Shown piece by piece: positions 1-60,922 of a DNA stretch of 64,000 bases. Every line of letters starts with the position of its first letter. Position 1 is the stretch's first letter. The notes below the pieces were generated by a model. It saw only the letters and a list, made by a program, of their open reading frames with translations, did no database searches and was not told where the DNA came from. The position numbers and the translations under genes are program-made. Source of the DNA: Chryseolinea serpens (GTDB lineage Bacteria > Bacteroidota > Bacteroidia > Cytophagales > Cyclobacteriaceae). Location of the stretch: assembly GCF_900129725.1 (NCBI RefSeq), contig NZ_FQWQ01000001.1, positions 1,116,001 to 1,180,000 on the forward strand, given 5' to 3'.

Positions 1-443
1 ACGTCGCCGTTGCTGAAGCGGTCGGGCATGAGCAGGTAGATGAAATCGCCGGCATCAACGCCCTGAGCAAAATCTTTACCCTTGCCGGCCCGCCTCGGGT
101 GAAGGGCCCAGGTCACGGACTTGGTTTTTCCTTTGCGGATAAAATCGATGGAAACATTTCCCGGTTTTGTGCCGGGCGCCACGGTGAGGTCGAGGGCATA
201 GTAGTGGGCGTTCTCCAGACGATCGATCTTGTCGAGTGTGACGCCCGGATAGTTGATGCGGACATCGGACTGGTTGAAATCCGGTTGCGTGCTTCGGACC
301 AGCAATTGCACTTTGTTCCATTTCATGTCCACCCACCAATGCGGCGGATACACGTCGGGTGACTGCGCTTTGGCCGGGAGTAAACACAAGGCCAAGCAAA
401 GTGTGAAAACTATTTTCATGAACGCGGGTATCGTTGGTTTCAT
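1..443 (-). CDS. SusA-like GH13 neopullulanase/cyclomaltodextrinase, N-terminal part (cut by window edge)
   Basis: The first 147 codons of a secreted GH13 enzyme that would cleave imported malto-oligosaccharides in the periplasm. Reading back from the ATG at 443 gives a signal peptide ending LCLLPAKAQ, then PPHWWVDMKWNKVQLLV, which is typical of the N-terminal beta-sandwich of Bacteroidota cyclomaltodextrinases and neopullulanases, and then DFIYLLMPDRFSNGD, the first conserved strand of the GH13 barrel. The catalytic residues lie beyond the left edge and cannot be checked. A second in-frame ATG at 419 directly precedes the signal-peptide core and is an equally good start. The start is only 23 bp after the amylase stop, so the two are probably co-transcribed. 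The family is clear; the exact specificity is inferred from the sus context. Confidence 0.82.
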   Translation of the reverse strand, partial: MKPTIPAFMKIVFTLCLALCLLPAKAQSPDVYPPHWWVDMKWNKVQLLVRSTQPDFNQSDVRINYPGVTLDKIDRLENAHYYALDLTVAPGTKPGNVSIDFIRKGKTKSVTWALHPRRAGKGKDFAQGVDAGDFIYLLMPDRFSNGD

Positions 444-466
444 GGCGTGGGGATAAAGTGAGGTGG

Positions 467-3295
467 TCAATTTTTGATGATGGTCGTGGTGTACTGCGTC
501 GTTCCCTTCCCGATCTTTAAAATGTACAGGCCCGGAGCGAAGGACGTGGCATCCCAATGATTCCGGTCAACTTTGTGGAGCGCCATCGGCTGTCCCAGGG
601 TGTTGAAAGCGCGAACGTCGAGGTCGCTTTTATCGGCAGCTTCGATCTGCAACACGCCGGTGGATGGATTGGGGTAGACCGTATAGGAAAGTGTGTGACG
701 CTCCTCCTCTACCCCGGTAATGGTTTTCAAAGCCACGTCGGTGTAGAGTCTGTACTCCCCCGGTTGCAGGGTCATGCTGATGGAATTGCTGGCTACGGAC
801 AGTGGCGTGGCTTTGATGTAGTCATACCACGTGCCGGTGTGCGGGAACGTTACGCTGACGTTTTGAGGCGTCACGTCAAAATTTCCTGCGATCTGAACAT
901 TCATCTGGCTGGCATCCGCAGGGGTCGCGGTGTAGGGATTGTTCATTAGCGTGATCTGTTTTAGCAATTGATTGCCCGTGGTAACGGTGGCATCACCTTT
1001 TGTGAAGACGCTATACGTGTTTCGAAGCCGGAGGAGGTCGGCCACATAGTCGTGCAGGGCGTCGCGCTCGGGCACGGTCTGATAGTTCCACAACACGGGC
1101 TTGGCCGTGACGCGGCAGTCGTTGCTGATGGTGCCGTCGCTGCAACGGTTGATGCTTTGATCATATCCCAGCTCCTCAAATTCCCATAGCATCTTCGGCC
1201 CGGGCAACGTGTAGAAAAAGGTGGCGGCTGCTTTCATGCGATTTAGCGCGGTGGCCAGGGTTTTCACCGAATAGGTACCGGATGAATTCCCATAGTTCAG
1301 CGCCTTATACATCATGCGTTCTTCATCGTGACTCTCCATATAGGACACCAGTCGCGGATCGGTCCAGCTCCGGGTCTTGTAATACCCCCACGAAATATCC
1401 GAGCCCGCACTAAAGCCCATGGCGCTTTGCGTGTAGGCATAGTTCTCATTTCCCCAGAGCATGAGGCCGTCGGCGGCGAGAACGGTTTCTTCGGAGTTGT
1501 CGGCAAAGTGTTCCAGGATCAGGTAGGCATCGGGCGTGTGGGTGCGGACGCGGGCCGCCATGCGCTTCAGGATGTCGATGCGCGATTGGTCAAATGCAGA
1601 CCAGGCCGCCACGTCGCTGCCGGAATTCTTTTGGGTGAATCCTTTCGACAGGTCGTAGCGGAAGCCGTCAACTTTATATTCGTTCAGCCAGTGATAGTTT
1701 ATGGTATCGACATATTGCTGCGTGTATTTGCTTTCGTGGTTCATGTCAAAGAAAACGCTGTACGGGTGGGTGGCCGTCACGTTGAACCATTTGTTGGTGG
1801 GGTTGGGTTTCATGCCCGTGAAGTCAAAATCCATCATCACATAGGCATTGGGAAGATCCTGGTGGTTCAACACCATGTCCATGATCACGGCAATGCCGTT
1901 GAGGTGGCAGATGTCTATAAATTCTTTGAACTTATTTTTGCTGCCGTAATATTTATCCGGCGCAAACATAAACGTGGGGTTATAGCCCCAGCTGTCGTTG
2001 CCGTTGAATTCGGTGATGGGCATCAGTTCGATGGCGTTGATGCCGAGTTTTTTGAAATAGCCGATGGTGTCCATGAGGCTCTGGTAGTTGCGGGCGTTTT
2101 CGCCAAAGAAGTCCCGGATGTGCAACTCATAGATGACGAGATTTTCCGGTGCGGGTTTTTGATAGCCCGAGGCCGTCCACGCAAACGGTGTTTGTCCCGT
2201 CTGCAACACGGCCACGCGGTTGAAGTACCATTGCGTGTTGAGGGCTTGCGAAGGATAAGGCTTTAAACTGGGATAGGTCGTTGCCGGGATATATTGATCA
2301 TCCGGGTCCAGCACTTTATCGGCATAGGGGTCGGCGATCTTGATCGACTCATCCACCAGGTATTGAAAACCATACTCCTCTCCTGCCACGAGTCCGTTCA
2401 GCGCGAGCCAAAAATGCTCGCCGTCTTTTTTCATTTTATAATCCTCGTCGATGGCCCAGTTGTTAAAATCACCGAGCACGTACACCGAAGTTTTGCCAGG
2501 GGCTAGCAGGCTGAGGGTGGCGTGGGTTGGGTCGCCACTGTCATAATTTATGCCGTCGATAATGCCTGCGGGGCGCGGAGCATTGGCCGTGGTGGTGCGG
2601 ACATAGTACGAAAAGGTGCTGGTCTTGGTGTCGGTTCCATTGTTGGCCGATCCCTCCACAGTGACCGATCCCTCGGTCTCGGTTACCGTGTGGGTATAGT
2701 TCAGGGTTGTGTTTTGAAGGATGGTGGCCTTTGAAACGCCTCCCACTTTTATTTCGAGGTCGGCTGTGGCCGAAGCCTTCAGTGTCATGGGGATCTGGTC
2801 GCCGGTGTTCACAAAAAAGGTGGTTTGGGTTGGGGTGGTGAACTTCACGGAGAACCCGGTGGTGATGGTAATGTATTTGTCGACGTCCGTCTGTTTGTTC
2901 TCGCTCCAGTCGCGGCTTTTTAGTTTCAGGCCGATTTGGGTGATGGCGGAGGCGGGTTTGTTGAAAAAGGTTGTCGGTGTGAAGGTGATGGTGTATTTAT
3001 CGGGGTTGGTTGTTAACCGGTAGCACTTTGCTGCATCTTGCCCGGGCGAGGTGGCGGGGTTCACGTTGGTGGGGGCGTCGACGGAATTGCCGTTGCTGTC
3101 TTTGAGCCAGGTCCAGATGTAGACGGGATTGGTGTCGTTGTTCCAGGCAAATTTGTCGAGGCTGGTGCCGGAGACGTCTACCGTGATGGTGACGGGTTGG
3201 TCGGCCACGGGGAATGCCGGGACGGTGGTTACGATTTGGGCATGGGTGAGTTGTAGGGTGTATAGTAGAAATAATGGTATAAGTAGCCGTTTCAT
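467..3295 (-). CDS. Secreted GH13 alpha-amylase with CBM48-type domain and T9SS sorting tail
   Basis: A multidomain extracellular amylase of 942 residues. After a signal peptide (MKRLLIPLFLLYTLQLTHA) come two beta-sandwich regions (about 25-235), a CBM48-like glycogen-binding domain with YVLGDFNNW (about 255-345), and the GH13 barrel (about 388-760). The four GH13 regions are intact: DMVLNH at 473-478, GFRYDLSKG with nucleophile Asp548, LILEHF with acid/base Glu595, and ESHDEER with His656/Asp657. The C terminus (from YTVYPNPSTG, about 871) is a type A T9SS sorting domain, so the enzyme is expected to cross the outer membrane and be anchored or released there. I chose the ATG at 3295 because it starts the signal peptide; upstream in-frame ATGs at 3322 and 3373 would put charged residues before it. 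It follows the susCDE genes after a gap of about 425 bp that contains hairpins. Confidence 0.93.
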   Translation of the reverse strand: MKRLLIPLFLLYTLQLTHAQIVTTVPAFPVADQPVTITVDVSGTSLDKFAWNNDTNPVYIWTWLKDSNGNSVDAPTNVNPATSPGQDAAKCYRLTTNPDKYTITFTPTTFFNKPASAITQIGLKLKSRDWSENKQTDVDKYITITTGFSVKFTTPTQTTFFVNTGDQIPMTLKASATADLEIKVGGVSKATILQNTTLNYTHTVTETEGSVTVEGSANNGTDTKTSTFSYYVRTTTANAPRPAGIIDGINYDSGDPTHATLSLLAPGKTSVYVLGDFNNWAIDEDYKMKKDGEHFWLALNGLVAGEEYGFQYLVDESIKIADPYADKVLDPDDQYIPATTYPSLKPYPSQALNTQWYFNRVAVLQTGQTPFAWTASGYQKPAPENLVIYELHIRDFFGENARNYQSLMDTIGYFKKLGINAIELMPITEFNGNDSWGYNPTFMFAPDKYYGSKNKFKEFIDICHLNGIAVIMDMVLNHQDLPNAYVMMDFDFTGMKPNPTNKWFNVTATHPYSVFFDMNHESKYTQQYVDTINYHWLNEYKVDGFRYDLSKGFTQKNSGSDVAAWSAFDQSRIDILKRMAARVRTHTPDAYLILEHFADNSEETVLAADGLMLWGNENYAYTQSAMGFSAGSDISWGYYKTRSWTDPRLVSYMESHDEERMMYKALNYGNSSGTYSVKTLATALNRMKAAATFFYTLPGPKMLWEFEELGYDQSINRCSDGTISNDCRVTAKPVLWNYQTVPERDALHDYVADLLRLRNTYSVFTKGDATVTTGNQLLKQITLMNNPYTATPADASQMNVQIAGNFDVTPQNVSVTFPHTGTWYDYIKATPLSVASNSISMTLQPGEYRLYTDVALKTITGVEEERHTLSYTVYPNPSTGVLQIEAADKSDLDVRAFNTLGQPMALHKVDRNHWDATSFAPGLYILKIGKGTTQYTTTIIKN

Positions 3296-3349
3296 GCCGT
3301 TGAGGTTTCTTTGAGTTTTCATGCTTGGGAGTGGGTGTGGTTGGGCTCC

Positions 3350-3630
3350 GAATTCTTGTTGGTGAGACACCAATAAGGGGATCGTTGTGGTTTGTTTAAA
3401 ATTTTTAATGTCTTTGTCTGTGAGGGTGTGATCAGAATGTGTTTGTGTGTGTGATGGTGGGTACCCCTTCGAATTCTTGTTGGTGGGACACCAACAAGAG
3501 GGTGTGGGGAATCCGTTTTATGTTGTTGAAATTTTTAAATGCTTTTGCTTAGGTGTTTGCATTCAAGTGTGTCTTTATTCGTCATTATGTTCCCTCCAGA
3601 TTCATGTTGGTGAAGAACACCAACATGGGC
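3350..3630. repeat. Three spaced hairpins of one family (TTGGTG...CACCAA)
   Basis: Three related inverted repeats lie 120 and 127 bp apart in the susE-amylase gap. At 3356-3376 there is a 9-bp stem with one G-T mismatch and loop AGA. At 3476-3498 there is a perfect 10-bp stem CTTGTTGGTG/CACCAACAAG with loop GGA. At 3603-3627 there is a perfect 10-bp stem CATGTTGGTG/CACCAACATG with a 5-nt loop. The DNA between them is also alike (each has an AAATTTTTAA-type core followed by TG-rich sequence), so this is an imperfect tandem repeat of about 120 bp. The third hairpin keeps its pairing although its outer bases changed together. The hairpins would lie in the leader of the amylase message. The role is unknown; a REP-like repeat, an RNA-stability element or an attenuator are all possible. 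Confidence 0.75.
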
Positions 3631-3721: not shown

Positions 3722-5341
3722 TTATTTTTTCGTGAGCTTGTACGTGTAGCCTGTCGGCGCGAGTATGAGCTCGACTAAGTAAGTTCCGTCGCCGGGTGAC
3801 TTGATGTTTCCGCCGCCATATTCCAGGACGCCGTCGGCATTGCCGTCGCCGAGGTTGATGTCCCAGCTGTTGTTGGCCCGGAACTTCAATTCATGCGTGC
3901 CGCCGGTGAGTACCATGTTGTCGATGGACAGCGTGTAGGTTCCGATGCCGCCGGTGAGGGTTAACACGCCCGGGTCGGGATCGCTGGCTGGCCATCCACC
4001 GGGAGTGGCATCGCCCACTACCGCCCACGTGGTGAGGGTGGTGGTGTATTTCAATGTTAGGAAGTCGGCGGTGATGCGATAGAATCCATCGACAGGCACC
4101 TGGATGTTGTTGCCTCCATCTTGTGCGAGGTTACCGTCGGTGCTCTTGCCCCATGCGCCGGGCCAGTCCTGGATCTGTAACATCTTGAATCCGCCGTCGG
4201 TGTTGGTATGCTTCAGCCAGGCATACATTTCAAATTTGCCATCCGCTGTTTTGATAAACGGAATGGATGCACCGGGATTCCAACCTGCCGAAGAGGCATC
4301 GCCTACGAGATATAATTTATCAGGATAGGGATAGCGCACCAGGGTGATCGTATACTTCAGGGTGGCGTCGTTAAACGTTACCTTATAGAAGCCGTCGGCT
4401 CCGGCCCAAACAAAATTAGGTCCAAATTCGGCTGCTTTGCCTTCTGTTCCTGAATCGCCATAGTTCTTTCCTTTGAAATAAGGACTCTCCGAAAATTTGA
4501 ATTCGTCGTTGGGCTTCAGCCGCACTTCGGCGAGTTCCCAGCTGTTGTCGGCTTTCAATTGGAACTTGCTCTCGTCGCCTTCAAAATTGTTGAAGTTGCC
4601 CAACACAAAGAGGCCCGAAAGGTTGGTCTTGAAATTCACGGCGGGCTTCACGGAATACGTGAGGGTCTGGTCGTTGAAGGTCACGTTGACAAGGCCCGAG
4701 AATTTACAATCCGTGTTGCCATTGCCACCTTCGGCTTTGTTGGAGTTCATCAAACCGTCGCAGCCGGGATCGCCCCAGTCTTCGTCGGTCCAGTCGGGCG
4801 TGTTTTTCAGTTTCCAGGCTTTGCCTTGCAGATCGATGTTCTTGATCTCCCAGGTAAAGTCACTGATCAGCGTCAGTTCCGCTGCACCCCAGCCGTTGAA
4901 CTCACCGGCGATGTACATCTTCGTGTTCTTGGCCGGGTACAAGGTTTGGGAAACGGCGAACGCCACCGACTTCGTCGTGGTCAGGTTGCGGGTGTTTACC
5001 GCGGAGATCTCCATCGTATAGTCACCCAACGGCAGCGCGGCAGAATTGAAGTCGCTCGACTTGGCCACGAGGGAATCTTTTGTTCCGCTCAGGCCTTCTG
5101 TCATCGTATACAAGGTATTGCCGTCTTTATCTTTCAGGGTCAGCGTTCCCGACGTCAGCGGGGCGCCGCTCACTAAAACGGCCTTCAGATCGAACGTGCC
5201 GATCTTCACGCTAACGGTCGGACTGGAGCTCAAGATGGTCGGCGGAAAACTGAGTTGCCCGTCCACGTTCTCAACGCCTTCCTGGCAGGAATAGAGCGCG
5301 GCGGCAAAAATGAGCGAAAAATATAGAAATAGCTTTTTCAT
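3722..5341 (-). CDS. SusE/SusF-like surface starch-binding lipoprotein
   Basis: A 539-residue outer-membrane lipoprotein expected to hold starch at the cell surface for the neighbouring SusC/SusD pair. The lipobox is LYSC with Cys19 after a short hydrophobic signal. Residues about 30-135 resemble the SusE-type N-terminal Ig-like domain. Four tandem SusE/F-type binding modules follow at about 141-232, 243-335, 342-436 and 438-538, each opening with a strand such as MYIAGEFNGWG, LFVLGNFNNF, LYLVGDASSAGWNP or WAVVGDATPGGWP and carrying conserved Trp and Asn that typically contact glucan. I chose the ATG at 5341 because it begins the signal peptide and sits 13 bp after the susD-like stop; an ATG at 5368 would overlap that gene. 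The length and four modules fit SusE/SusF proteins. Confidence 0.9.
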   Translation of the reverse strand: MKKLFLYFSLIFAAALYSCQEGVENVDGQLSFPPTILSSSPTVSVKIGTFDLKAVLVSGAPLTSGTLTLKDKDGNTLYTMTEGLSGTKDSLVAKSSDFNSAALPLGDYTMEISAVNTRNLTTTKSVAFAVSQTLYPAKNTKMYIAGEFNGWGAAELTLISDFTWEIKNIDLQGKAWKLKNTPDWTDEDWGDPGCDGLMNSNKAEGGNGNTDCKFSGLVNVTFNDQTLTYSVKPAVNFKTNLSGLFVLGNFNNFEGDESKFQLKADNSWELAEVRLKPNDEFKFSESPYFKGKNYGDSGTEGKAAEFGPNFVWAGADGFYKVTFNDATLKYTITLVRYPYPDKLYLVGDASSAGWNPGASIPFIKTADGKFEMYAWLKHTNTDGGFKMLQIQDWPGAWGKSTDGNLAQDGGNNIQVPVDGFYRITADFLTLKYTTTLTTWAVVGDATPGGWPASDPDPGVLTLTGGIGTYTLSIDNMVLTGGTHELKFRANNSWDINLGDGNADGVLEYGGGNIKSPGDGTYLVELILAPTGYTYKLTKK

Positions 5342-5354
5342 GTTTCTGTCAGTT

Positions 5355-6959
5355 TTAGTAACCGTCATTCTGTTTTAATTTGGTATTGGCCGTCAGGGCT
5401 GCTGCAGGGATGGGGAACACGTTGCGGAAAGCTTGTGTTTGTTTTCCGGCTGCGCTCTCGCCGCCTTTCCAGGCCCAGATGGCACGCGGGTCGTTGCTAT
5501 CGTTCACGGTCAGCAAGCCAAAGCGAACCAGGTCGGTTCTTCTGTGGCATTCCCAGCTGAGCTCGCGGCCGCGTTCGTCGATGATGAAACTGAGCGTGAG
5601 GTCGGCAGCCTGGAGGTTTCCGTTCGTGTTGCCATAGGCGCGGACACGAAGCTGGTTGACATAATCCAAGGCTGTGCCGGCATCGCCACCCGAGCCTCCT
5701 CTCAAAACTGCTTCAGCATACATCAGGTAAACATCGCCTAAGCGGAACATCGGGAAATCGGTGTCGGCAAATGTGCTGTTGCTTCCCGGGGATCCCTGGG
5801 AAGTTACGTTCTGAAATTTCGGATGGGCATAGCCCTGGTTGAAGCTGGTGTTGGGTGTTGCAGGAATGTCCTTCGATTGGCCATCGGTGAAGAAGTTGCC
5901 GCGACCGTCGGCCGGTCCGAACAAGTTCACAACGTTCGATGTGATGCGAAGACCAGCCCAGCCGCCGTCGATGCCATAGTCCGAAGGTTTCATCTTGTCG
6001 CCTCCCACGGCCGCGTGGGCCAGGAAGGTGGTGCCTCCGTAGGTCTTCGTGTAGGTTCCATCAAAGGCCACGGGAAAAATGATCTCGGGTGACTTATGAT
6101 TGTCGGCCAGGAAGAGATTGCCATATACGGGATCGAGGGTGTAGGCATTGGAAGCGATGATCTTGTTCAAATACGTGAGCGACTCGGTATACTTCTTTGT
6201 ACCGATATAGGTCTCGGCGTTCAGATACAATTTTGCCAACAGCATCCAGGCAGCCGCCTGGTCTACGCGGGCATATTCCATCTTCTTGGCTCCGCCCAGG
6301 TCGGGTTCCACTGCGAGCAGTTCGCTTTCGATGTAGTTGAATACATCTTGTTTGCCGCCCTCCGGCTGACCGGGAGCATCCGTGCCGATGGGGTTTGTTT
6401 CGGGCACCAGCGGAATGCTGCCAAACATGTCGAGACCGTGCCAGTAGCTGAGCGCGCGGAGGAAGCGTACTTCGGCGCGGTATTGTTTGATGTCGGCTTT
6501 CATGGCATCGGTAACGCCACGCGCCGTCAACAAATCATCGGTGGTCTGGCGCAGGAATTCGTTGGCCATCGACACCTGGAAATAAACACGGTTGAACATG
6601 GCGTTGATGAATTCGCTTTGCGAGGTCCAGTTCTGGAAGTGCAGGGTTTGGATGGTGCCGTCGTTCCAGCCGATCACGGCTTCGTCGGTAGGAAGCTCCT
6701 GCAGGTTGAAATACATGCGGATGTATTGCGAGAACCCGCCGTCGATCCCGCTGATGTCGGAGTTGCCATCGCCCGACGACTGGCCACCGATGGCCAGGCC
6801 GGCATACACTTTGGCAAGCGATTGCTTATAGGCCGCAGGGTCGGTGAAAACCACATCTCCCACCGCGGCATTCTTGGGCGTTACGTCCAGGTCGGTGCAG
6901 CCAAACACCCCGCCTAAAAGGGCGATGAACGCTATTCGTAATATCTTTTTATTTTCCAT
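5355..6959 (-). CDS. SusD/RagB family nutrient-binding outer-membrane lipoprotein
   Basis: A 534-residue SusD-type lipoprotein that forms the lid on the SusC channel and binds the incoming glycan. The signal ends in the lipobox VFGC with Cys21. The N-terminal TPR-like region (FTDPAAYKQSLAKVYAGL) and the C-terminal motif RGRELSWECHRRTDLVRFG followed by the closing PIPAAALTANTKLKQNDGY are hallmark SusD sequences. It lies 31 bp downstream of the susC-like gene and in the same operon as the starch-binding lipoprotein and amylase, so the substrate is inferred to be starch, glycogen or maltodextrin. Family assignment is firm. Confidence 0.95.
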   Translation of the reverse strand: MENKKILRIAFIALLGGVFGCTDLDVTPKNAAVGDVVFTDPAAYKQSLAKVYAGLAIGGQSSGDGNSDISGIDGGFSQYIRMYFNLQELPTDEAVIGWNDGTIQTLHFQNWTSQSEFINAMFNRVYFQVSMANEFLRQTTDDLLTARGVTDAMKADIKQYRAEVRFLRALSYWHGLDMFGSIPLVPETNPIGTDAPGQPEGGKQDVFNYIESELLAVEPDLGGAKKMEYARVDQAAAWMLLAKLYLNAETYIGTKKYTESLTYLNKIIASNAYTLDPVYGNLFLADNHKSPEIIFPVAFDGTYTKTYGGTTFLAHAAVGGDKMKPSDYGIDGGWAGLRITSNVVNLFGPADGRGNFFTDGQSKDIPATPNTSFNQGYAHPKFQNVTSQGSPGSNSTFADTDFPMFRLGDVYLMYAEAVLRGGSGGDAGTALDYVNQLRVRAYGNTNGNLQAADLTLSFIIDERGRELSWECHRRTDLVRFGLLTVNDSNDPRAIWAWKGGESAAGKQTQAFRNVFPIPAAALTANTKLKQNDGY

Positions 6960-6990: not shown

Positions 6991-9900
6991 TTAGAGTCCG
7001 ATGTGCACACCAAACACGAACGTTCTGGCCCGCGGATACAGGTTGTTGTCGATGCCCGAAACGGATACTTCAGGATCGATACCGCTGTACTTGGTGATCA
7101 CAAACGCATTCTGCACCGTGGCATACACGCGGATGTTGGCTTTCGTGAGCTGCTTCACCGAATACCCCAGGGTGAGGTTGTCCATGCGCAGGAAGGAGGC
7201 GTTCTCTACATAAAAATCAGAGAAGTACTGCGGTGTGTAATAATTGGCCCGCAGCGAATTCGTGATCAGGTTGAGGGGACGGAAAGCGTCGCCGGCGCGC
7301 TGGAACGTAGAGTTGGACGCTACGTTGTTGTAGACATAGTTGCCCAGGTTCGCCCGCAACGTGAAGCTGAAGTCGAAGTTCTTGTAGTTCAACTGCGAGG
7401 TGAGTCCCATCAGCACACGCGGTGCCGGGCGGTGGAAAGGACGGAGATCTTTTTCGTTGATGATACCATCATTGTTCTGATCCACATACATGTTGGTCTT
7501 GTCCTCAGCACCCAGGTTATCGTTCACGGGTTTGCCATCCGCGCCGGTCTTATGTTCAAATACATAGAAGGCATTTACCGGCTGGCCTACGCGCAGGATC
7601 TCGACCTTGTTTCCAACACCACCCGCAATGTTATCGCCGGCGGCATAACCCGGGAAATCAGGGTCGTTGTTGCCGTCCAGTTGCGTGATCTTGTTGGTGT
7701 TGTAGGCGGCGTTGAAGCCCACGTTCCAGGTGAGGCTTGGCGTGGAAATGGCCACCGCGTCGAGGGAGAGTTCGACACCTTTGTTTTGCACTTTACCAAT
7801 GTTGGTCAGGATGGTGTTCGTGAGGTTTGCACCGGGTGCCACCGCACGGGTAAACAACAGTTTGTCTGTATTCTTTTGATAGACTTCGATGGATCCCGAA
7901 AGTCTGCCTTGCAACACACCAAAGTCCAAACCGATGTTGGAAGATGCGGTTTGTTCCCACTGCAGGTTGGTGTCATAACCCGAAGGGCGGATGGTGGTAT
8001 AATAAGCGCTACCGAATTGATAGTTCGCTTGCGGGTCGCTCGGCGTGTAGGTGCCCAGGTAGCGGAAATTTCCAATGTCCTGGTTACCGGTAATACCATA
8101 GCCCGCGCGCAGTTTCAGGTCACTGAAGATGTTCTGGTTCTGCATGAAGTTTTCGTTCGCAATTCTCCAACCGATAGCAGCGGAAGGAAACGTTCCCCAT
8201 TTGTTGTTGGGGCCAAAGCGCGTGGACCCGTCTCGACGAAGGTTCACCGTCAACAAGAATCGTTCATCATACGAATAGTTGACCCGCCCAAAGAACGAGA
8301 TGAGCCGGTTCTCACCCAGGGATGGGATGGCCGTTGTGCTCAGGGGATCGAAGGGAATGGTCTTGCGCGCTACGCCAGGGTTGTTGTAGCCATAGATGTT
8401 TGTACTCAACTGCGTAGCGGTGTAGCCGTGATTTTCGGCATAGAAGCTTTGCCACGAATAACCACCCGTTACATCCACTTTACTTTTTATCGACTTCAGG
8501 TCGCGCGTGTAGTTGATGTAACCCTCAAACAGCATGCTGTTCTTATAAGGGTTCTGGATCACCACCTTGCCCGTGTCGGGGCTGTTCTCTGCCTTAAGGG
8601 TGCTGGGCAGGAATTGCTTGCGCTGACCGCGGGTCACATCATAGCCCAGGTTGACGTTGAAGCGCAGGCCGGGAACGACTTTCACTTTATAGTCCAACTG
8701 CAGATTGCCCAAGCTGCGCAACACCGAGCCCACGTCCTTACTTTGCATGAGGCTGGACACCGGGTTGTTCGGCGAGTTCACTTTGGGTACGCGCTTGCCG
8801 CCGATGGAATCGTAGTATTCATAGTAGCCGCCAAAAGGGCTTTTGGCATCATATACCGGGTGCGAAGGATCGTAGGAGATCGCAGCGCCGATAACATCGG
8901 CAGAATAGAAGTCTTCCGTTACAGCGCCTTTCACGTTCACGTCGATTTTCAACGCGTCGTCCAGGGCGAGTTGAGAGAAGTTGACGCCGATGTTGGTCTT
9001 CTTGGTGTAGGAGGTCTTGATGATACCGTCTTGCTGGAGATGACCCAGCGAAACGCGGTAGTTCGTTTTGTCCGTGCCGCCCGACAGCGAGAGGTTATGG
9101 CTCTGCCCTACTGCCGTTTGAAAGATCTGGTCTTGCCAGTTGGTGTTATAGGCGCGATCGGCCACATCAGCGGCTTCGGGATTGCCCATGTATTTCAGGT
9201 TTTGCGGTGCATAATAGGACACCACAGAACGGAACTGGTCAGCGTTGAAGACGTCGTATTTCTTGGCCACGGTTCCCACCGACACAAAGCCATCATAGCT
9301 CAGGGTCGGGGCGCCGCTCTTGCCACGCTTGGTGGTGATGAGAATAACGCCGTTGGCAGCACGCGATCCGTAGATAGCGGCCGCAGACGCGTCTTTCAAC
9401 ACCGTGAACGTCTCGATGTCGTTGGTGTTGATGAAGTTGAGCGGGTTGCGGCCGGCGGCGGTTCCATCCGAAACCACGGGAATGCCGTCTACAACATAGA
9501 GAGGCTCGTTGCTAGCATTAATGGAAGTACCCCCCCGGATGCGGATGCTGGAACCCGATCCCGGCTGGCCATCCGACGGCAAGATCTGAACGCCGGCCAC
9601 TTTGCCATTCATTAATTGGTCTGGCGAAACAATGGCCCCTTTATTAAAGGACTTGGAATCCACGGTAGCGACCACGCCCGTTACGTCTTTCTTTTCCTGT
9701 TGGCCATAGCCCACCACCACGACTTCCGAAAGGGAGGTGACATCGACCTGGAGGGTAAGATCGACGGCCGACTGGCCGCCCACGATCACTTCCTGCGATT
9801 TGTAGCCGATAAAGGAAAAAATAAGTGTTGCGTTATCGGTAACGCTGATGGAATAGTGGCCATTGGAATCGGTGACCGTTCCGTTGGAAGTTCCTTTTTC

Positions 9901-10047
9901 CAGGACGTTCACCCCCGGCAAGGAAGCACCGTCCTCGGCGGATGTGATCTTACCTGTTACGACCTTGCTTTGTGCCCACGCCAATGTGCTGGTAAGGAGC
10001 AACATTGCCGTCATCCACGTAAATCGTGTTGTAAACAGTTCTCTCAT
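6991..10047 (-). CDS. SusC/RagA family TonB-dependent glycan transporter
   Basis: A 1018-residue TonB-linked outer-membrane channel that would import malto-oligosaccharides with TonB/ExbBD energy. A signal peptide (residues 1-25) is followed by a carboxypeptidase-regulatory-like beta domain (about 28-103), the SusC hallmark LSEVVVVGYGQQEKKDVTG (106-124), a plug domain with GSSIRIRGGTSINASNEPLY and VVDGIPV, and a long beta-barrel ending in an aromatic strand (RTFVFGVHIGL). No FecR-interacting signalling extension is present, so regulation by an anti-sigma system is not expected. It is the first gene of the sus-like operon, and about 1.1 kb of non-coding DNA lies upstream. Confidence 0.95.
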   Translation of the reverse strand: MRELFTTRFTWMTAMLLLTSTLAWAQSKVVTGKITSAEDGASLPGVNVLEKGTSNGTVTDSNGHYSISVTDNATLIFSFIGYKSQEVIVGGQSAVDLTLQVDVTSLSEVVVVGYGQQEKKDVTGVVATVDSKSFNKGAIVSPDQLMNGKVAGVQILPSDGQPGSGSSIRIRGGTSINASNEPLYVVDGIPVVSDGTAAGRNPLNFINTNDIETFTVLKDASAAAIYGSRAANGVILITTKRGKSGAPTLSYDGFVSVGTVAKKYDVFNADQFRSVVSYYAPQNLKYMGNPEAADVADRAYNTNWQDQIFQTAVGQSHNLSLSGGTDKTNYRVSLGHLQQDGIIKTSYTKKTNIGVNFSQLALDDALKIDVNVKGAVTEDFYSADVIGAAISYDPSHPVYDAKSPFGGYYEYYDSIGGKRVPKVNSPNNPVSSLMQSKDVGSVLRSLGNLQLDYKVKVVPGLRFNVNLGYDVTRGQRKQFLPSTLKAENSPDTGKVVIQNPYKNSMLFEGYINYTRDLKSIKSKVDVTGGYSWQSFYAENHGYTATQLSTNIYGYNNPGVARKTIPFDPLSTTAIPSLGENRLISFFGRVNYSYDERFLLTVNLRRDGSTRFGPNNKWGTFPSAAIGWRIANENFMQNQNIFSDLKLRAGYGITGNQDIGNFRYLGTYTPSDPQANYQFGSAYYTTIRPSGYDTNLQWEQTASSNIGLDFGVLQGRLSGSIEVYQKNTDKLLFTRAVAPGANLTNTILTNIGKVQNKGVELSLDAVAISTPSLTWNVGFNAAYNTNKITQLDGNNDPDFPGYAAGDNIAGGVGNKVEILRVGQPVNAFYVFEHKTGADGKPVNDNLGAEDKTNMYVDQNNDGIINEKDLRPFHRPAPRVLMGLTSQLNYKNFDFSFTLRANLGNYVYNNVASNSTFQRAGDAFRPLNLITNSLRANYYTPQYFSDFYVENASFLRMDNLTLGYSVKQLTKANIRVYATVQNAFVITKYSGIDPEVSVSGIDNNLYPRARTFVFGVHIGL

Positions 10048-10244
10048 AGATTTAGATTAGGTTAAGTTTTTTTGTTTGCGGTTCCCGAAAAGGACCCGGG
10101 GTCCCACCGTCTGGAGCCGGCCGCACCCGTTTGAATTCTCTTAGGAAACGATTGCAACGTACCACTCGCCAGGCCCTGAGTCGGCCCACTTTGAGCAAAA
10201 ATGAAAATGCATTACAACGGAGGGGGTGCCGCTTTCATAAAATA

Positions 10245-10303
10245 CTGATAATCAGATTATTGAAAGGGATTGAAGCAGGTTCCATTTCTTAAAGTGGAAC
10301 CTG
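10245..10303. promoter_or_regulatory. Palindrome and hairpin upstream of the susC-like gene
   Basis: About 200-255 bp upstream of the susC start are a palindrome, CTGATAATCAG (10245-10255, flanked by A/T that partly extends the symmetry), and a perfect 9-bp inverted repeat, CAGGTTCCA (10276-10284) with TGGAACCTG (10295-10303). No T-run follows the inverted repeat on the minus strand, so an operator is more likely than a terminator. No clear Bacteroidota promoter was found by eye. Which regulator binds is unknown; the CBM48-AraC regulator at 13.2-15.1 kb is one candidate. Confidence 0.4.
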
Positions 10304-13175: not shown

Positions 13176-15092
13176 TTATTCCTTCAGCGTATTAAAAAAC
13201 GCACTCGGCGTTTGACTGGTGATCTTTTTAAATGAACGATTGAACGCCGTCTTCGAATTGAATCCTACATCCAGCGCGATCCCCAGCAGGGTATAGTTTT
13301 TGTACTGCGGATCCTCCACCCTACGCTTGAATTCATCGATGCGATAAGTATTTATATAATCAAAGAAATTCATGCCAAAACCGCTGTTGATAACCTTTGA
13401 AAGAATATGCGGCTGAAGCTTAAGACGCGAAGCAAGTTCAACAAGCGACAGCTTCGGGTTGGTGTAGGGCTGGTATTTCTCCATGTAGCTGGTGACCTTC
13501 TCCTTAAGGATGTCGAGGTTCTCCATGGATACCTCCTCTTTCTCTTTGCCGATGTGATTGAGATAATCGATCACCTGGTGATCAAGTTCCACCTTGTTGA
13601 GTTCGTCGACTTGTGAAAGGGTCTGGGGTAGACGGAAGATGTCGGGTTCGTGAATGACGAAGTAGCCGAGGAAGAAGGTGATCACGGAAAAGGTCATCCA
13701 AAGGGTGTCGATGCTGATGTCGATGACGTTTGAAATTTCCCATCCGAACATCCAGGCCAGCACGGCTGCCACAAACGTGACAAACCACACCACCAAACAG
13801 GCGGCCTGGATAAAGAGCACCGTGTTGAGGTATTGCAGGTTTTGTTCGTAGGAGTTGCTGTTCTGGTAGTTCACCTTATAAAAATTGATGGCCCCCAGGC
13901 ATTTTACCCAATAATAGATGTTCAACCCCAGGGCTACCGACGACATGCAGAAACGGATGATCCGCAACTCGGACTCCGGTTCGATGAGCTTGGCCTGAAA
14001 CGCGGGCTGGTCCATGAGAAAATAGACCATGTAAACAAAAAACTGGACAAACACCGGCACGTAAAAGACCAGTCGAAGCTGATTTCGCGACTGGAACAGC
14101 AGGCGCTGGATATAGGCATAGAACAACGGTGCGTACACAAACAAAATAAAATCCGGGATCAGCTGCAGCTTGGGCAGCGTATGCTCCACTTCCGGGTAGC
14201 CCGACACCACTTTAATAAGCAGGATGGCCGACGTGAAGCCGATCAACAGGATGAGCCAGCGGTTAGCCTCCCGGTTGTACTCCTGTATGGTAGGAATGGT
14301 GACGATGAGCAGCAAGCCCTGGAACACGGAAAACAATAGCAACAGGTCATAGATGGAATAGAGCTGGAGTCCGCCGGAGATGTCTTCCCAGCCTGCAATC
14401 TCCACCCTGATCTTGCCCGTGGCCGAGCGGCGGTTGGTGGAGCGGTTGGCCATGGTGCGTCCCCCCGAGCTGCTCTCGGCCGATTTCCAGGTGCCGCGGG
14501 TGAACTTGTAGTCGATGCGTTCGCCGTTAAAGTAAATGAGCACCTGGTAGCTGCCGTCGATCTGTTTGCGGAGTTTGTAGTTCTTGTCGCCGGGGTTCCA
14601 GTTGTTGAAATTTCCCGTCACATAAAGCGATGCGTCGAACGGAGTGCTCTCGGGCACCTTGTCGACGATGAGGGTGTATTCGGGTTGCTTCTCCCACCCT
14701 TCTATGACGACCCGGATCAGGTGGGGATTGTCTTCCAACTGCCGGTTATAGACCCGGTTGGGCAGGATCTTGCCGTCGGCATAACCTTCTACGATCTGCC
14801 AGCCGCCCTGTGTGAATTTGTATTCGAAACTGGTGAGCGTGTCGGGGAGGTCGAAATAGTAGACACCGTCGGGGCGCCGGGTGAGCTTGAAGTTTTCCTC
14901 GCCGGGGCTCCAGTTATTGAAGGTACCGGAAATGAACAGGCTGGAATCTTTCAGGATAAACTTGGGGTGCTTAATGACTTCTATACGGATTTGTGCGCGC
15001 ACATGAAAGGACGCCAACACCAGGAAAAGCGCAAAAAAATAGGGCCGCGAAGTGCGGTCTAGTCTGCTCACGAGGTTGGTAGGCGCCGGCAT
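13176..15092 (-). CDS. Transmembrane AraC-family regulator with two glycogen-binding-like E-set domains
   Basis: A 638-residue one-component receptor. A signal peptide or anchor (about 17-33) is followed by two extracytoplasmic E-set/CBM48-like domains (about 35-135 and 139-232). They carry near-duplicate motifs, FISGTFNNWSPGEENFKL (53-70) and YVTGNFNNWNPGDKNYKL (157-174), of the kind that bind alpha-glucans in AMPK-beta and glycogen-branching enzymes. Seven membrane segments follow (about 244-490), then a linker and a C-terminal AraC double helix-turn-helix (about 525-636) containing LSLVELASRLKLQPHILSKV and LLGIALDVGFNSKTAFNRSF. It probably senses a periplasmic ligand and changes transcription directly. 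The sus-like operon 3 kb away makes alpha-glucan a natural ligand, but that is inference. Confidence 0.88.
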   Translation of the reverse strand: MPAPTNLVSRLDRTSRPYFFALFLVLASFHVRAQIRIEVIKHPKFILKDSSLFISGTFNNWSPGEENFKLTRRPDGVYYFDLPDTLTSFEYKFTQGGWQIVEGYADGKILPNRVYNRQLEDNPHLIRVVIEGWEKQPEYTLIVDKVPESTPFDASLYVTGNFNNWNPGDKNYKLRKQIDGSYQVLIYFNGERIDYKFTRGTWKSAESSSGGRTMANRSTNRRSATGKIRVEIAGWEDISGGLQLYSIYDLLLLFSVFQGLLLIVTIPTIQEYNREANRWLILLIGFTSAILLIKVVSGYPEVEHTLPKLQLIPDFILFVYAPLFYAYIQRLLFQSRNQLRLVFYVPVFVQFFVYMVYFLMDQPAFQAKLIEPESELRIIRFCMSSVALGLNIYYWVKCLGAINFYKVNYQNSNSYEQNLQYLNTVLFIQAACLVVWFVTFVAAVLAWMFGWEISNVIDISIDTLWMTFSVITFFLGYFVIHEPDIFRLPQTLSQVDELNKVELDHQVIDYLNHIGKEKEEVSMENLDILKEKVTSYMEKYQPYTNPKLSLVELASRLKLQPHILSKVINSGFGMNFFDYINTYRIDEFKRRVEDPQYKNYTLLGIALDVGFNSKTAFNRSFKKITSQTPSAFFNTLKE

Positions 15093-54945: not shown

Positions 54946-56583
54946 TTAGTTCGAAATATTGAGGTATAAATCCGTTTCGCTTTTTGTGCCATCTGACATG
55001 ACAAAACTGAATAAATCGCGAAAATCGGAATTCGCATTGTTCTTCAGCGCCTTCAAATAGAGATCCCTGGCCTCCGGCTCTGTGAGGGCTTTCATTTGAT
55101 CATTGTTCATATAGGGGAAAAAGCCCGTTTGAAAACTGGGGATTAGCCTGTTGTAGATCAGGTAAAACAAAACCTTGGCTTCTTCTCTTTTCAGGGGCTC
55201 AACCGGTTCCAATCGATTCACGTTGTTCAGCATTTTATGATAATCCGCGAGGGTCTCCGGCTCGTGACAAATTCCATAACCGGAATATGAATTTCTTGCC
55301 GCAATTATCGCTGGAATCCCAAGTGCAGAAAACTCCAGCCCGGCCGTACCTGCACAGGTGATAATGGCATCGGCCACATTGGGGACTGATGCCTGATTGA
55401 ACGGCGCGTTTTCATCAATGTAGACGATATTTGAAACATCTTCCAATTGGTCGAACAATCCCAAGAGATTGGCATCGTCAGGATAAAATTTTATCATGGG
55501 ATGCTGCTTGAATATCCAGTTTGTCGCAGGACTGTTTTTTGCAATCTTAAGCGTCGTTGCAAACCACTCATAATAATCCTTGAACATCCTTTGAACTTGA
55601 ACATGCGGGTCATCATTCATGGCATGCAACATGATAAAGACATTCTTATTCTCAGGGTTGAGCTTTGGATAGTCCGCAAAGAATTCGACACGATTATTAT
55701 AGAGCTTTTTTCCTGGGGCAAACGCTCTCATAGCGTCCCAATCATTGATTTCGCCGCCAAATCGCTTTTTATAGTAAAGGGTGGCCTGCTCCAGCAGTAC
55801 ATCCTTGCGCGTCGCCATCACCTGTTTAAAGAAATCAACCGGGATTTTGATGTGGATATCCAATTGACCCTTTCCGTTAAGCATATAGTTATAACGATAC
55901 AACGCATTCGACCCTCCAAACCCTTGAAACACCGGTTTTCCTTGCGAAAGAATAGCTCGCACGGCAACACCATGATAAGAGCACGTGGTATGCGTAAACA
56001 TCCCGGCAACGACATCGTAGGATTGAAATACTTCCAATATAGCTTCAATGCAGGTGATGGAATTTTCAATCTCCGTCAAAACATTCTCATTTACGCGCCA
56101 GAGCGTAGCATGCTTGTATTTGATCACAGCATCATACACCTGCTCTCCGATCGGAATTCCCTTATAGACTATATCAAGGATATCCCGGGTATTGGTCAGT
56201 CCTTTATAGATATCAGCAGACTCCTTTTTAATCGATTCCTGTTTTCGTTGAAAGGTATCCTCAAGAAACACAAACTCGCAATTGCCAAACGTCCGTTGGA
56301 AATGAAACGCTCCTCTCCGCTTCCCTCGCACCTTTATCAAATAGACAACCTTCGCACCATAAGCCGCGGCAACCAGGGAAGCCGATATCGAGACCACCAA
56401 AGACCAAAAACTACCTCCCACAGCTTGTTCAGAAATCACAACCTTATTTCCCACTGTCCTGAACGTGCCGATTCTCTTCCAGAATTTAGCATTCTCCCTG
56501 GAAAACAATTTGAATTCAGATGACAATGTATTTGGGAACCTGGCTATGATTCTACTCGTCAAATTCTTAAGTCTCGCCATCAT
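54946..56583 (-). CDS. Capsule-type GT-B transferase, possible nonulosonic-acid transferase
   Basis: A 545-residue protein without signal peptide. Its C-terminal half looks like a KpsC/polysialyltransferase-type GT-B domain: NWIFKQHPMIKFYPDD with the HP motif (His361-Pro362) and IITCAGTAGLEFSALGIPAI (about 408-427), the pattern where CMP-sugar transferases bind the nucleotide. The N-terminal half has SYHGVAVRAILSQGKPVF, as seen in surface-polysaccharide transferases. Its start overlaps the CMP-sugar synthetase stop by 4 bp, so it is coupled to the gene that makes the likely donor. Transferring legionaminic or a related acid is inference. Confidence 0.65.
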   Translation of the reverse strand: MMARLKNLTSRIIARFPNTLSSEFKLFSRENAKFWKRIGTFRTVGNKVVISEQAVGGSFWSLVVSISASLVAAAYGAKVVYLIKVRGKRRGAFHFQRTFGNCEFVFLEDTFQRKQESIKKESADIYKGLTNTRDILDIVYKGIPIGEQVYDAVIKYKHATLWRVNENVLTEIENSITCIEAILEVFQSYDVVAGMFTHTTCSYHGVAVRAILSQGKPVFQGFGGSNALYRYNYMLNGKGQLDIHIKIPVDFFKQVMATRKDVLLEQATLYYKKRFGGEINDWDAMRAFAPGKKLYNNRVEFFADYPKLNPENKNVFIMLHAMNDDPHVQVQRMFKDYYEWFATTLKIAKNSPATNWIFKQHPMIKFYPDDANLLGLFDQLEDVSNIVYIDENAPFNQASVPNVADAIITCAGTAGLEFSALGIPAIIAARNSYSGYGICHEPETLADYHKMLNNVNRLEPVEPLKREEAKVLFYLIYNRLIPSFQTGFFPYMNNDQMKALTEPEARDLYLKALKNNANSDFRDLFSFVMSDGTKSETDLYLNISN

Positions 56584-57284
56584 AAAATATAATCACCTTT
56601 TGTTTTTAAAATCCATTCGGCCCATTGCCAATCCTTTTCTTCGTCCAGATCAACTGAATATTCTTCGCCCATTTCATAAGGCGCAATTCGCTCGAATTGA
56701 CCTATTGGTCCCTTTCTTAGCGCGCTAACATTCATCACATAGATCGACCCGTTCAGCTCATAAATCGTTGGGCTATCCTGTCTCCTGGTGAAGTTGCCCG
56801 TCTTTGATTTATAGATGAGCCCGTCTTTCCTATTCATCTCGAATAAATTAAAATAGGGGTTGGACTTTGTCCGTTTCACAGAGGCCACCATATCCAACTC
56901 CGATCTAAAAAGATCTATTGCTTGCTGCACTTGTTCCACCCTCCGAAAAGGGCTGGTCGGTTGAAGCAACAAAACCCCCTTGTATTGGCGCAAATATCTA
57001 TTCGCATAAAAATCAAGCGCATGAAGGATAACATCTTGTGTGGAAGCGGTATCTGTTGCCAACTCCTCCGGTCTGATAAACGGCACTTTAATTCCCATTT
57101 TCTCCGACACTTCCTTAATTTCCGCATCGTCCGTACTTACGCAAATATGTTCCTCCGGAAACAATGCCTTTGCTATTTCAATGGAATAGTGGATCAGGGG
57201 CTTGCCTCCCAGCAGCCGAACATTCTTCCGTAGGATTCCCTTTGAACCTCCACGCGCAGGAATAACAACCAATATCTCGTTCAA
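56580..57284 (-). CDS. CMP-nonulosonate cytidylyltransferase (NeuA/LegF type)
   Basis: A 234-residue enzyme that activates a nonulosonic acid with CTP. It opens ILVVIPARGGSKGILRKNVR, the family signature, and continues with KPLIHYSIEIAK, CVSTDDAEIKEV, VLLLQPTSPFRRVEQVQQAI and SIYVMNVSALRK. Length fits the short LegF-like form. It overlaps the PtmE-like gene and the transferase gene by 4 bp each. Confidence 0.9.
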   Translation of the reverse strand: MNEILVVIPARGGSKGILRKNVRLLGGKPLIHYSIEIAKALFPEEHICVSTDDAEIKEVSEKMGIKVPFIRPEELATDTASTQDVILHALDFYANRYLRQYKGVLLLQPTSPFRRVEQVQQAIDLFRSELDMVASVKRTKSNPYFNLFEMNRKDGLIYKSKTGNFTRRQDSPTIYELNGSIYVMNVSALRKGPIGQFERIAPYEMGEEYSVDLDEEKDWQWAEWILKTKGDYIL

Positions 57285-58321
57285 AACCTCAAGTGCTTAA
57301 TATCTTCTTGTGCCTTTTTAAAATCTTCGTGCTTGCCAATGTCCAACCAATATCCAACCAATTGATAGTACGAAATGGAATGTCCTTTCTCGAGCAGTGT
57401 ATCCATAAAATCTGTCGCGTTGAAAAAACCATTGGAGGGAATATACTTTAAAAGCTGCCGCTTAATAAGGTAAATACCTGTATTGGCCTGATACGTGTAG
57501 TCGGGTTTCTCCTTAAAGGATTTGATCGCCTTTCCTTGTGTCTCCAATATGGCGTAAGGGACTTGGATGGGGTATGAAATGGCGGCCACCATCATATCGG
57601 ATCCTGATTGCAAGAAATCAAAAAAGAAATCCTCATAGTCGATGTTGGTCAAAAGGTCGGAATTGGTCAACAAGACGTACTCGTTTTGCCACTCTTGTAT
57701 TAGAGAAAGTGCACCGATCGTTCCCAATGCCTGATGCTCTTCGATACATCGAACCGTATCGAAGGCTTTGTCCGACTTTACAAAGTCATAGATCTGTTCC
57801 TTTAAATAATTTACGGTGATAAAAATATTCTTAATACCAAAGCGCATAATCCGCTCCAGGTTGTAGGCAATTATAGGTTTATCTCCGATTGCCAACAGAG
57901 GCTTGGGCGTCTTTTGGGTCAGTGGCAAAAGCCGGGTTCCTTTGCCACCTGCCATAATAACCGCATCAATGGGTAGCGCGGTACTGACTTTATCGAAACT
58001 CAGCAGGTCTATTACTCTCATCTGCTGGTCGACAATCGGGAGAATTTTTATGGCCTTGTTTCGCTGCTCCTTGATGAGGTGTAGATCGATCTTGTCCTTG
58101 ACCAGGTATTTACACGAGGCATTCATGACATGCTGAACGGAATCGTCAAGCCCTGTGCCCCTCAGAATTCCTCGTCGTATATCGCCATCGGTAACGCTGC
58201 CCAGCAGTTTGCCCTCAGCGTTGACCACGAACAGGTTAAGATCTCGTTTTAACTTATTAAGCTGCTGCAAACATCCCAGCAAGGTCGCCGTTTCGGATAT
58301 AAGGTAATCACCTGTGTTCAT
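57281..58321 (-). CDS. CBS-domain sugar nucleotidyltransferase (PtmE-like)
   Basis: A 346-residue protein with an N-terminal CBS-domain pair (about 1-117, including GSVTDGDIRRGILRGTGLDD) and a C-terminal sugar-1-phosphate nucleotidyltransferase (from about 120; MAGGKGTRLLPLTQKTPKP at 123-141, LLTNSDLLTNIDYEDF, YWLDIGKHEDFKKA). This layout matches PtmE, which in the Campylobacter legionaminic pathway makes GDP-GlcN for the GDP-linked route. Neighbouring NeuB, NeuC and NeuA-type genes support that reading. Confidence 0.85.
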   Translation of the reverse strand: MNTGDYLISETATLLGCLQQLNKLKRDLNLFVVNAEGKLLGSVTDGDIRRGILRGTGLDDSVQHVMNASCKYLVKDKIDLHLIKEQRNKAIKILPIVDQQMRVIDLLSFDKVSTALPIDAVIMAGGKGTRLLPLTQKTPKPLLAIGDKPIIAYNLERIMRFGIKNIFITVNYLKEQIYDFVKSDKAFDTVRCIEEHQALGTIGALSLIQEWQNEYVLLTNSDLLTNIDYEDFFFDFLQSGSDMMVAAISYPIQVPYAILETQGKAIKSFKEKPDYTYQANTGIYLIKRQLLKYIPSNGFFNATDFMDTLLEKGHSISYYQLVGYWLDIGKHEDFKKAQEDIKHLRF

Positions 58322-58349
58322 GCGTTGATGAATTATATTGTTTGTCTAC

Positions 58350-59471
58350 CTAATATTTATAGACGATAAAGCTATTTTCCGCGCCTTTTAGATCTGCTTT
58401 AATTTGCTGCAGATCTGTATAGGCGCGTATTCTTGAACCTTGTTCGATCATGCTGACCAGGATACTGGAATAGACCACCTCGCCGCCGTGAAAACCATCT
58501 ACCATGCCTTCTCCTTCCAAACTGCCCAACGCCATCGCATCACTAAAATCATAGACCTCATAACCATATTTTTCAAACACTGGGCTGATTTGCGGATAAA
58601 TCATTTTAAGATAACCATACTTACCCAGATCTTTCATCTTTTGAAATACCGTTGGGGCGAATGGTGGCAAAAAAGCAATTACCTCAATCTGCTGCGCTTT
58701 GCAAAAAGCAAGCAAGCTATTCAAAGTATCCAGGGCCGCTGCATCAAGGGCATCGCCGTAGTTAAACCGGCAACATCCCTTGCTGATCCGCGACATGGTC
58801 TCCTTAAAGGCAAAATCCCTATAGGATGTGTCGTGCGCTACCAATTTTTGAACGGCGCCGTTGTAAAAATAGCTTCCGTCGTTCCGAAATCCATTGGTCT
58901 CGGAAACCGCGTTTACCCCATATACCTTATACCCTGGCAAGGCCAATATATTTTTAACCTTCCCTTGAAAGACATCAACCACAAACGTCTTCACTTTTTC
59001 GTGAACGTTTTTGTCGACGGCCGTCACATCGGTCCAGGACTGACCATCGGCCGGATTCTTATAATTATTCCGGTAGTCGACGTTAAACATCCATTGATCC
59101 AACCCGAGGATTATTAACCGAGGCAACTTTCCAGTGGGCAGGGCTCTTAAAAAGCTTTCATACTCCTCCATATTTTGGACAGCTCCCCCGGCATTGTAGA
59201 AGCGCTGCAAAAACATCTCCTTTCTGAACTGCATCACCCGGGATGATCCCAGTGCCAGGATATCAAACCGCTCCCGCTCCTGGACATTCAAAAACTTGAA
59301 TTGCCGTCCTATCTCTGAATAGGCCAGCCCAAACACATACTTCTCCTCGCTACGGGTAACGGATTTGACATTTAGGAATACTTCCTTGGAATACATGAGC
59401 ACCCCCAACGGAAAAAGTAATAGGGAAAAGGGAGCTATGAACAGTATTAGTTTTTTCAGAAATCGCTTCAT
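58350..59471 (-). CDS. SGNH-like membrane-anchored partner of MBOAT acyltransferase (AlgX/DltD-like role)
   Basis: A 373-residue protein with one N-terminal membrane anchor (about 8-26) and an extracytoplasmic domain. ILALGSSRVMQF (Ser76 region) resembles the first block of SGNH esterases, and DGFHGG gives an Asp325-x-x-His328 pair like the last block. Proteins of this type receive the acyl group from a neighbouring MBOAT channel and pass it to the polysaccharide (compare AlgX/AlgJ, DltD, PatB). The MBOAT gene is 9 bp upstream. The family name is inferred from motifs and context. Confidence 0.68.
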   Translation of the reverse strand: MKRFLKKLILFIAPFSLLLFPLGVLMYSKEVFLNVKSVTRSEEKYVFGLAYSEIGRQFKFLNVQERERFDILALGSSRVMQFRKEMFLQRFYNAGGAVQNMEEYESFLRALPTGKLPRLIILGLDQWMFNVDYRNNYKNPADGQSWTDVTAVDKNVHEKVKTFVVDVFQGKVKNILALPGYKVYGVNAVSETNGFRNDGSYFYNGAVQKLVAHDTSYRDFAFKETMSRISKGCCRFNYGDALDAAALDTLNSLLAFCKAQQIEVIAFLPPFAPTVFQKMKDLGKYGYLKMIYPQISPVFEKYGYEVYDFSDAMALGSLEGEGMVDGFHGGEVVYSSILVSMIEQGSRIRAYTDLQQIKADLKGAENSFIVYKY

Positions 59472-59480
59472 ATCATCCCC

Positions 59481-60917: not shown

Positions 60918-60922
60918 TGTTT

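Follow-up and report, generated by a model that had tools for sequence, protein, structure and literature searches.

Two kinds of starch regulator are described in Bacteroidota, SusR and the hybrid two-component systems (HTCS) of Bacteroides, according to the accessible text of PMC3878776. SusR (BT3705 of Bacteroides thetaiotaomicron) is presented there as a membrane protein whose sensor faces the periplasm and whose DNA-binding domain, in the cytoplasm, has no significant similarity to those of other known transcription factors. A "SusR" has also been named at a Pontibacter glycogen locus, its domains not being specified in the accessible part of PMC11206854, and CgrA of Zobellia galactanivorans is an AraC-family positive regulator of carrageenan genes (PMC5698469, accessible text). 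Here, we describe a 64,000-nucleotide stretch of the Chryseolinea serpens genome (the window, in which all positions are counted), where one open reading frame (ORF) on the minus strand (13176..15092, ATG start) encodes a 638-residue receptor-regulator. This protein is probably a membrane one-component regulator for alpha-glucan use that activates the sus operon, as suggested by its domain anatomy, its linkage to sus and GH13 genes, the conserved residues of a presumed sugar site, the starch-binding fold in the predicted model, and an operator-like site, fixed in its spacing, that is found together with the regulator, even where the two are unlinked in two genomes.

As far as SusR is described in that text, the two proteins are alike as membrane regulators of starch genes with a periplasmic sensor, a cytoplasmic DNA-binding domain and no kinase mentioned, and the window protein is set apart by its AraC/HTH_18 output, CBM20-like sensors and seven helices. 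The contrast with SusR drawn in the initial annotation therefore holds for sensor, seven-helix core and output, but not for kinase-free sensing, which is common to both. With HTCS the protein shares an AraC-type HTH_18 output at susCD loci (L310 being an example), and a profile search of it matched neither a histidine kinase or receiver domain nor Reg_prop or Y_Y_Y. CgrA is likewise an AraC-family regulator of polysaccharide genes in Bacteroidota, with carrageenan as its target, and the word "transmembrane" is missing from the accessible text of PMC5698469. CBM20/CBM48 modules, such as those of CGTase, beta-amylase, STBD1 and AMPK beta, sit on an enzyme or kinase subunit, whereas here they form the tandem exterior of a receptor, with Pfam scores under cut-off in the window protein. 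As initially supposed, no described example of this architecture was found in the open-access literature, judged by titles and abstract openings. We rate the receptor-regulator as different in its parts from known membrane one-component regulators; a reading of it as similar to G protein-coupled receptors (GPCRs) would be the larger novelty.

From the N terminus, the protein comprises a hydrophobic signal (residues 1-34, 14991..15092; hydropathy, with a model helix at 16-28), outer domain E1 (residues 35-131, 14700..14990; CBM20/CBM48-like by an AMPK beta-2 match and the model), CBM20-like outer domain E2 (residues 139-237, 14382..14678), seven transmembrane (7TM) helices in an arrangement that is GPCR-like in the predicted model (residues 241-488, 13629..14372; hydropathy and the model) and an AraC/HTH_18 DNA-binding domain (residues 535-638, 13179..13490; profile match), all on the minus strand. 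The predicted model of the 638 residues contains two beta-sandwiches and seven long helices (247-269, 274-297, 307-333, 341-358, 375-408, 415-449 and 454-481), bearing out the 7TM region claimed initially, with a low-confidence linker (residues 487-522) between it and the AraC domain. HTH_18 (PF12833) matches residues 553-634 with E=1.3e-13 and 51.5 bits, above the curated cut-off of 33.6, in agreement with the claimed AraC domain at the C-terminal end, and it matches 27/27 aligned proteins including that of the window (E up to 0.01). Because the N-terminal hydrophobic segment and the odd number of helices are combined with a C-terminal helix-turn-helix (HTH), the N terminus would lie outside and the C terminus inside, which would place the AraC domain on the cytoplasmic side.

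E1 and E2, each of about 97 residues, are 37% identical across 95 aligned residues, and carry W61, K92, W98 and N112-R113, and W165, K196, W202 and N216-R217, respectively. The initial annotation of two near-duplicate CBM48/E-set domains is thus right in their number, somewhat strong in "near-duplicate", and less apt in family, CBM20 being a better match than CBM48. Structure comparison of the ectodomain model matched the outer domains to starch-binding structures, CBM20 being the best match, and CBM20 replaced CBM48 as their label. AMPK/CBM48 and CBM20 form one superfamily, whose starch-binding beta-sandwich fold is present in the predicted model. Searched alone against the PDB, E1 matched AMPK beta-2 (whole-sequence E 0.009), a better result than the weak, partly irrelevant matches of a profile from a 12-row ectodomain alignment, and E2 alone gave no improvement over that profile. 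Among the 27 aligned proteins (E up to 0.01), AMPK1_CBM was matched in 13 (best 5.4e-7), the pullulanase X25 domain in 11 (best 1.4e-6) and CBM_48 in six (best 3.3e-6). W165, K196, W202 and N216-R217 of E2 are conserved in the family, with W165, K196, N216 and R217 ranking near the top for conservation over the entire protein. We take their counterparts to have a known role in CBM20, and these residues are the presumed sugar site. Elsewhere, the outer domain precedes PF00756 esterases in L213, L215, L224, L233 and L241, some next to susCD; it stands with CBM21 in L212, and one protein in L221 has five copies of it.

To describe its distribution, a profile of E2 plus 7TM was searched against 390 genomes of the order, the five best candidates per genome being scored, and gave 53 matches in 52/390 genomes (E<1e-60); across 395 genomes drawn from the phylum it gave four, all of the same order and one from the window's genome. 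A separate scan across named organisms, which kept the best 80 of 139 matches and is no census, found at least 20 near-full-length loci; hosts among the matches listed are Chryseolinea, Emticicia, Arsenicibacter, Hymenobacter, Daejeonella lutea (Sphingobacteriaceae), and Maribacter spongiicola and Croceivirga radicis (Flavobacteriaceae). Across 66 loci the architecture is E-E-7TM-HTH in 43, E-7TM-HTH in 12, where the lone outer domain aligns with E2, and E-E-E-7TM-HTH in one; in the remaining 10, E and HTH flank a middle region outside the reach of the 7TM profile. A GH13 gene lies within 10 kb of the regulator in 50/66 loci, SusC, which by itself is not alpha-glucan-specific, within 5 kb in 34/66, and either of them in 57/66. 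SusC or GH13 also occurs in the stretch examined in 17 of 20 full-length loci from the separate scan, six of these 20 repeating loci of the 66. By comparison, among 20 control loci of 7TM-AraC proteins without outer domains, GH13 occurs within the 20 kb examined in three, and 17 have neither GH13 nor SusC in the stretch examined. The survey of this domain order beside susCD or GH13, set beforehand as a possible refutation, thus found alpha-glucan-related neighbours. In L142, the regulator adjoins a 1999-residue GH13 protein with five CBM26 stretches; part of this neighbourhood is kept around the regulator in L146-L149, but the giant CBM26-GH13 amylase was not seen there. When 46 receptors were placed in a tree with 20 controls, they fell to one side of one branch; with a branch support of 58/19, a single origin is at most possible.

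GH53 (endo-galactanase family) stands just 5' of susC in L119, L133, L136, L137, L139, L190, L305 and L315, in operons that also carry cyclomaltodextrinase-type GH13. GH53 as a counter-sign to alpha-glucan was rejected, as cyclomaltodextrinase-type GH13 lies downstream in 7/7 loci checked and a SusE/F match in 6/7. In L305, L133 and L135, the regulator lies directly 3' of a gene resembling, by eye, DNA topoisomerase IV/gyrase subunit A.

The regions 5' of susC from 20 non-redundant loci, put through a Gibbs search, returned a motif above letter shuffles. A weight matrix built from 11 of the Gibbs sites (threshold 17 bits) found 37 places, of which 34 are intergenic, across the member loci and the window (1.30 Mb together), versus 2 in 0.40 Mb of controls. 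In the window, the candidate operator CAAAGTGGGCCGACT (10179..10193, minus strand, 20.7 bits) lies 132 bp 5' of the susC ORF, with the weak -7-like box TACGTTGC (10154..10161, minus strand) at the conserved 20-nt spacing; the strict TAnnTTTG, which we take to be the Bacteroidota -7 box, is not matched there. A strict unit of site plus TAnnTTTG, spacings of 18-22 nt being allowed, has 31 matches across 80 loci (the 66 and 14 named ones, three of the 14 being mutual near-copies), 30 of them within 1.5 kb of the regulator, and is absent from the 20 control loci. The spacing in 30 strict-unit matches is 20 nt in 23 and 21 nt in seven, with no other value. The Hymenobacter-type loci L106, L109, L113 and L197 have the common core and TAGGTTTG at the same distance. 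Moreover, a narrower strict pattern occurs once in each of 21/390 genomes, and the regulator is present in 19 of these 21. Lying over the presumed -33 region, the 15-bp site stops some 17 nt short of the -7 box, where an activator would be expected. About 90-110 bp upstream of the operator, the window (CAGGTTCCATTTCTTAAAGTGGAACCTG, 10276..10303) and other loci contain an inverted repeat of a word resembling the operator core, followed by a T-run in several loci, which may be the regulator's terminator, a second operator or both. The operator 14-mer has a second match in the window's genome, at G000:C8:683455-683468.

We infer the ligand, the transfer through the helices, DNA binding by the AraC domain and activation rather than repression as follows. 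SusC and SusD would deliver maltooligosaccharides (maltodextrin) to the periplasm, where the CBM20-like outer domains would bind them, E2 above all and E1 where it is kept. The seven-helix bundle would relay the change to the tethered AraC domain, which would bind CAAAGTGGRRCGACA over the -33 region, just 5' of the sus operon's -7 box, recruit polymerase and activate the operon. The alpha-glucan sensing and kinase-free gene switching proposed initially are supported by the GH13/SusC linkage, the starch-binding structural matches and the candidate operator-promoter unit at the sus operon.

The conserved site may instead serve a different regulator of the sus operon and simply travel with the locus, which we consider unlikely. 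LacI-type genes are found in L042, L187 and L188, and joint loss of site and locus is expected anyway. To separate site from linkage, a SusD search was made in the family of genome G250, matching 38/81 genomes, and 20 of the 43 listed loci were fetched, L304 being an incomplete stretch. The regulator is in the same stretch as susC in 7/20 loci (L298-L303 and L305), four of them with a proper site (L301, L302, L303 and L305). Five genomes have the regulator outside the fetched sus locus, two with the site and three without. The two are G811, where susC and GH13 are preceded by units of 21.4 and 20.1 bits (L297), and G307, with an 18.0-bit unit before a GH53-susCD-susEF-GH13 operon (L315). In G350 and G814, which are without a full-length regulator, no site stands before susC in three loci (L296, L306 and L311), and none was found in L310-L314, beside large HTH proteins (L311 counted in both groups). 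This absence at three susCD loci of two regulator-less genomes and the presence in trans in G811 and G307 argue against another regulator, as do the site's non-palindromic form, unlike LacI sites, and its position 5' of GH13 in L115, a locus without any susC.

Several findings weigh against activation of the sus operon by the receptor-regulator, the first two of which would fit another regulator. In L298-L300, the regulator is within reach of susC without a proper site; in G831, G826 and G832, where it is unlinked, no site stands before susC (L307-L309, which may be other loci, SusD being 46-48% alike). Co-occurrence alone is no proof of binding, since the loci are related by descent, hence not independent, and a lost locus takes its site with it. 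Scoring five candidates per genome means that some genomes counted as without the regulator may have one. An intergenic site of at least 17 bits is present in only 30/67 loci, window included, 11 of which supplied the matrix. The 14-mer alone is not enriched (11 matches in 7 genomes versus 15 for the reversed pattern), so specificity lies in the unit of site and -7 box rather than in the word. In the window itself the -7 box is a weak one, and the window's genome is not matched by the strict pattern. No operator was found by pattern in family f19, Flavobacteriaceae, Daejeonella and others, nor was one recognisable in alignments of three Flavobacteriaceae loci. In 9/66 loci (L045, L133, L135, L138, L146-L149 and L151), no GH13 gene lies within 10 kb and no SusC within 5 kb; the contigs of L138 and L151 measure 5 and 7.5 kb, a GH13 gene stands farther off in L133, and L147-L149 lie on long contigs. 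In the window protein, HTH_18 scores above its cut-off and AMPK1_CBM below (E=0.001, 19.6 bits, Pfam cut-off 26.8); with CBM53 and X25 weaker still, this one sequence gives weak evidence for the outer domains. PF00756 esterases carry the same outer domain, which is therefore no proof of an alpha-glucan ligand.

In the predicted model, the seven-helix arrangement may resemble that of animal GPCRs, at 8% identity. In a PDB structure search with the full-length model, the 7TM region filled the list, outer domains and HTH being unmatched among the matches listed. No Pfam 7tm family was matched in eight members scanned (E up to 10; HMMER filters drop most above ~0.1), and a 7TMR-DISM identity was rejected as the same scan gave no Pfam membrane-domain match, PF07695 presumably being the 7TMR-DISM membrane-domain model. 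7TMR-DISM receptors combine a carbohydrate-binding-like outer domain with seven helices, as does the window protein, but its output is AraC and its 7TM region matched none of their Pfam models in that scan; from GPCRs it differs in having a tethered DNA-binding domain as output. The 7TM-AraC orphans of Bacteroidota have the same 7TM and HTH order but no outer domains. At least four such proteins are encoded elsewhere in the window's genome (G000:C7:284844, C3:68604, C10:1284238 and C10:3225148).

The outer domains of the same receptor might dock to another sus protein or a surface glycan while the ligand enters the seven-helix bundle. The GPCR-like core of the model would fit this, since many GPCRs bind their ligand in the bundle, and 7TM-AraC proteins that lack outer domains, found in this genome as well as in others, must sense otherwise. 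We judge it quite unlikely, however, as W165, K196, N216 and R217 are among the protein's most conserved positions and the 12/66 single-domain loci keep the domain aligning with E2. If the outer domains are the sensors, it is tentatively possible, going by the model, that the protein belongs, now deorphanised, to a large class of bacterial receptors with a GPCR fold and a transcription factor of their own, as a sugar-driven switch with AraC on a dedicated operator. Ligand, receptor and promoter would then be one unit, and the 7TM-AraC proteins without outer domains its orphan cousins.

A repressor whose site blocks the sus promoter until sugar binds is very unlikely, because the 15-bp site covers the presumed -33 region at 20/21-nt spacing, which would be an activator-like position, and AraC-type regulators are mostly activators. 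A regulator of something else, adjoining sus by chance and decorated with E-set outer domains that bind no sugar, is hardly credible: the low single-sequence CBM scores and the similar esterase domains would suit it, but GH13 accompanies 50/66 loci versus 3/20 controls, in Cytophagales, Sphingobacteriaceae and Flavobacteriaceae.

Downstream of the regulator and on the same minus strand, the window encodes a SusC/RagA TonB-linked outer-membrane protein (6991..10047; TIGR04056, E 3.9e-246), SusD (5355..6959; PF07980, E 8.7e-34), a SusE/SusF-like protein (3722..5368; PF16411, E 7.9e-12), a GH13 alpha-amylase-family enzyme with CBM48 and a sorting tail (467..3373) and a second GH13 of cyclomaltodextrinase type (1..557, partial; 660 residues, extending beyond the window, L047:11576-13558). 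An Rce1-like protease gene and smaller ORFs lie between regulator and susC. Relatives of 97%, 89% and 58% have a similar sus locus downstream of the regulator. Farther along, 37126-64000 holds a long series of glycosyltransferase/surface-glycan genes, with NeuB-, NeuC- and NeuA-like ORFs within 56580-63119 (by eye).

In summary, the receptor-regulator is a testable candidate starch regulator for several Cytophagales families and single genera of Sphingobacteriaceae and Flavobacteriaceae, with a proposed ligand, receptor residues and DNA site named within one protein and one promoter. It would also be a starting point for the many 7TM-AraC orphans, and a simple bacterial system for asking whether a GPCR-like seven-helix bundle relays a sugar signal directly to DNA.
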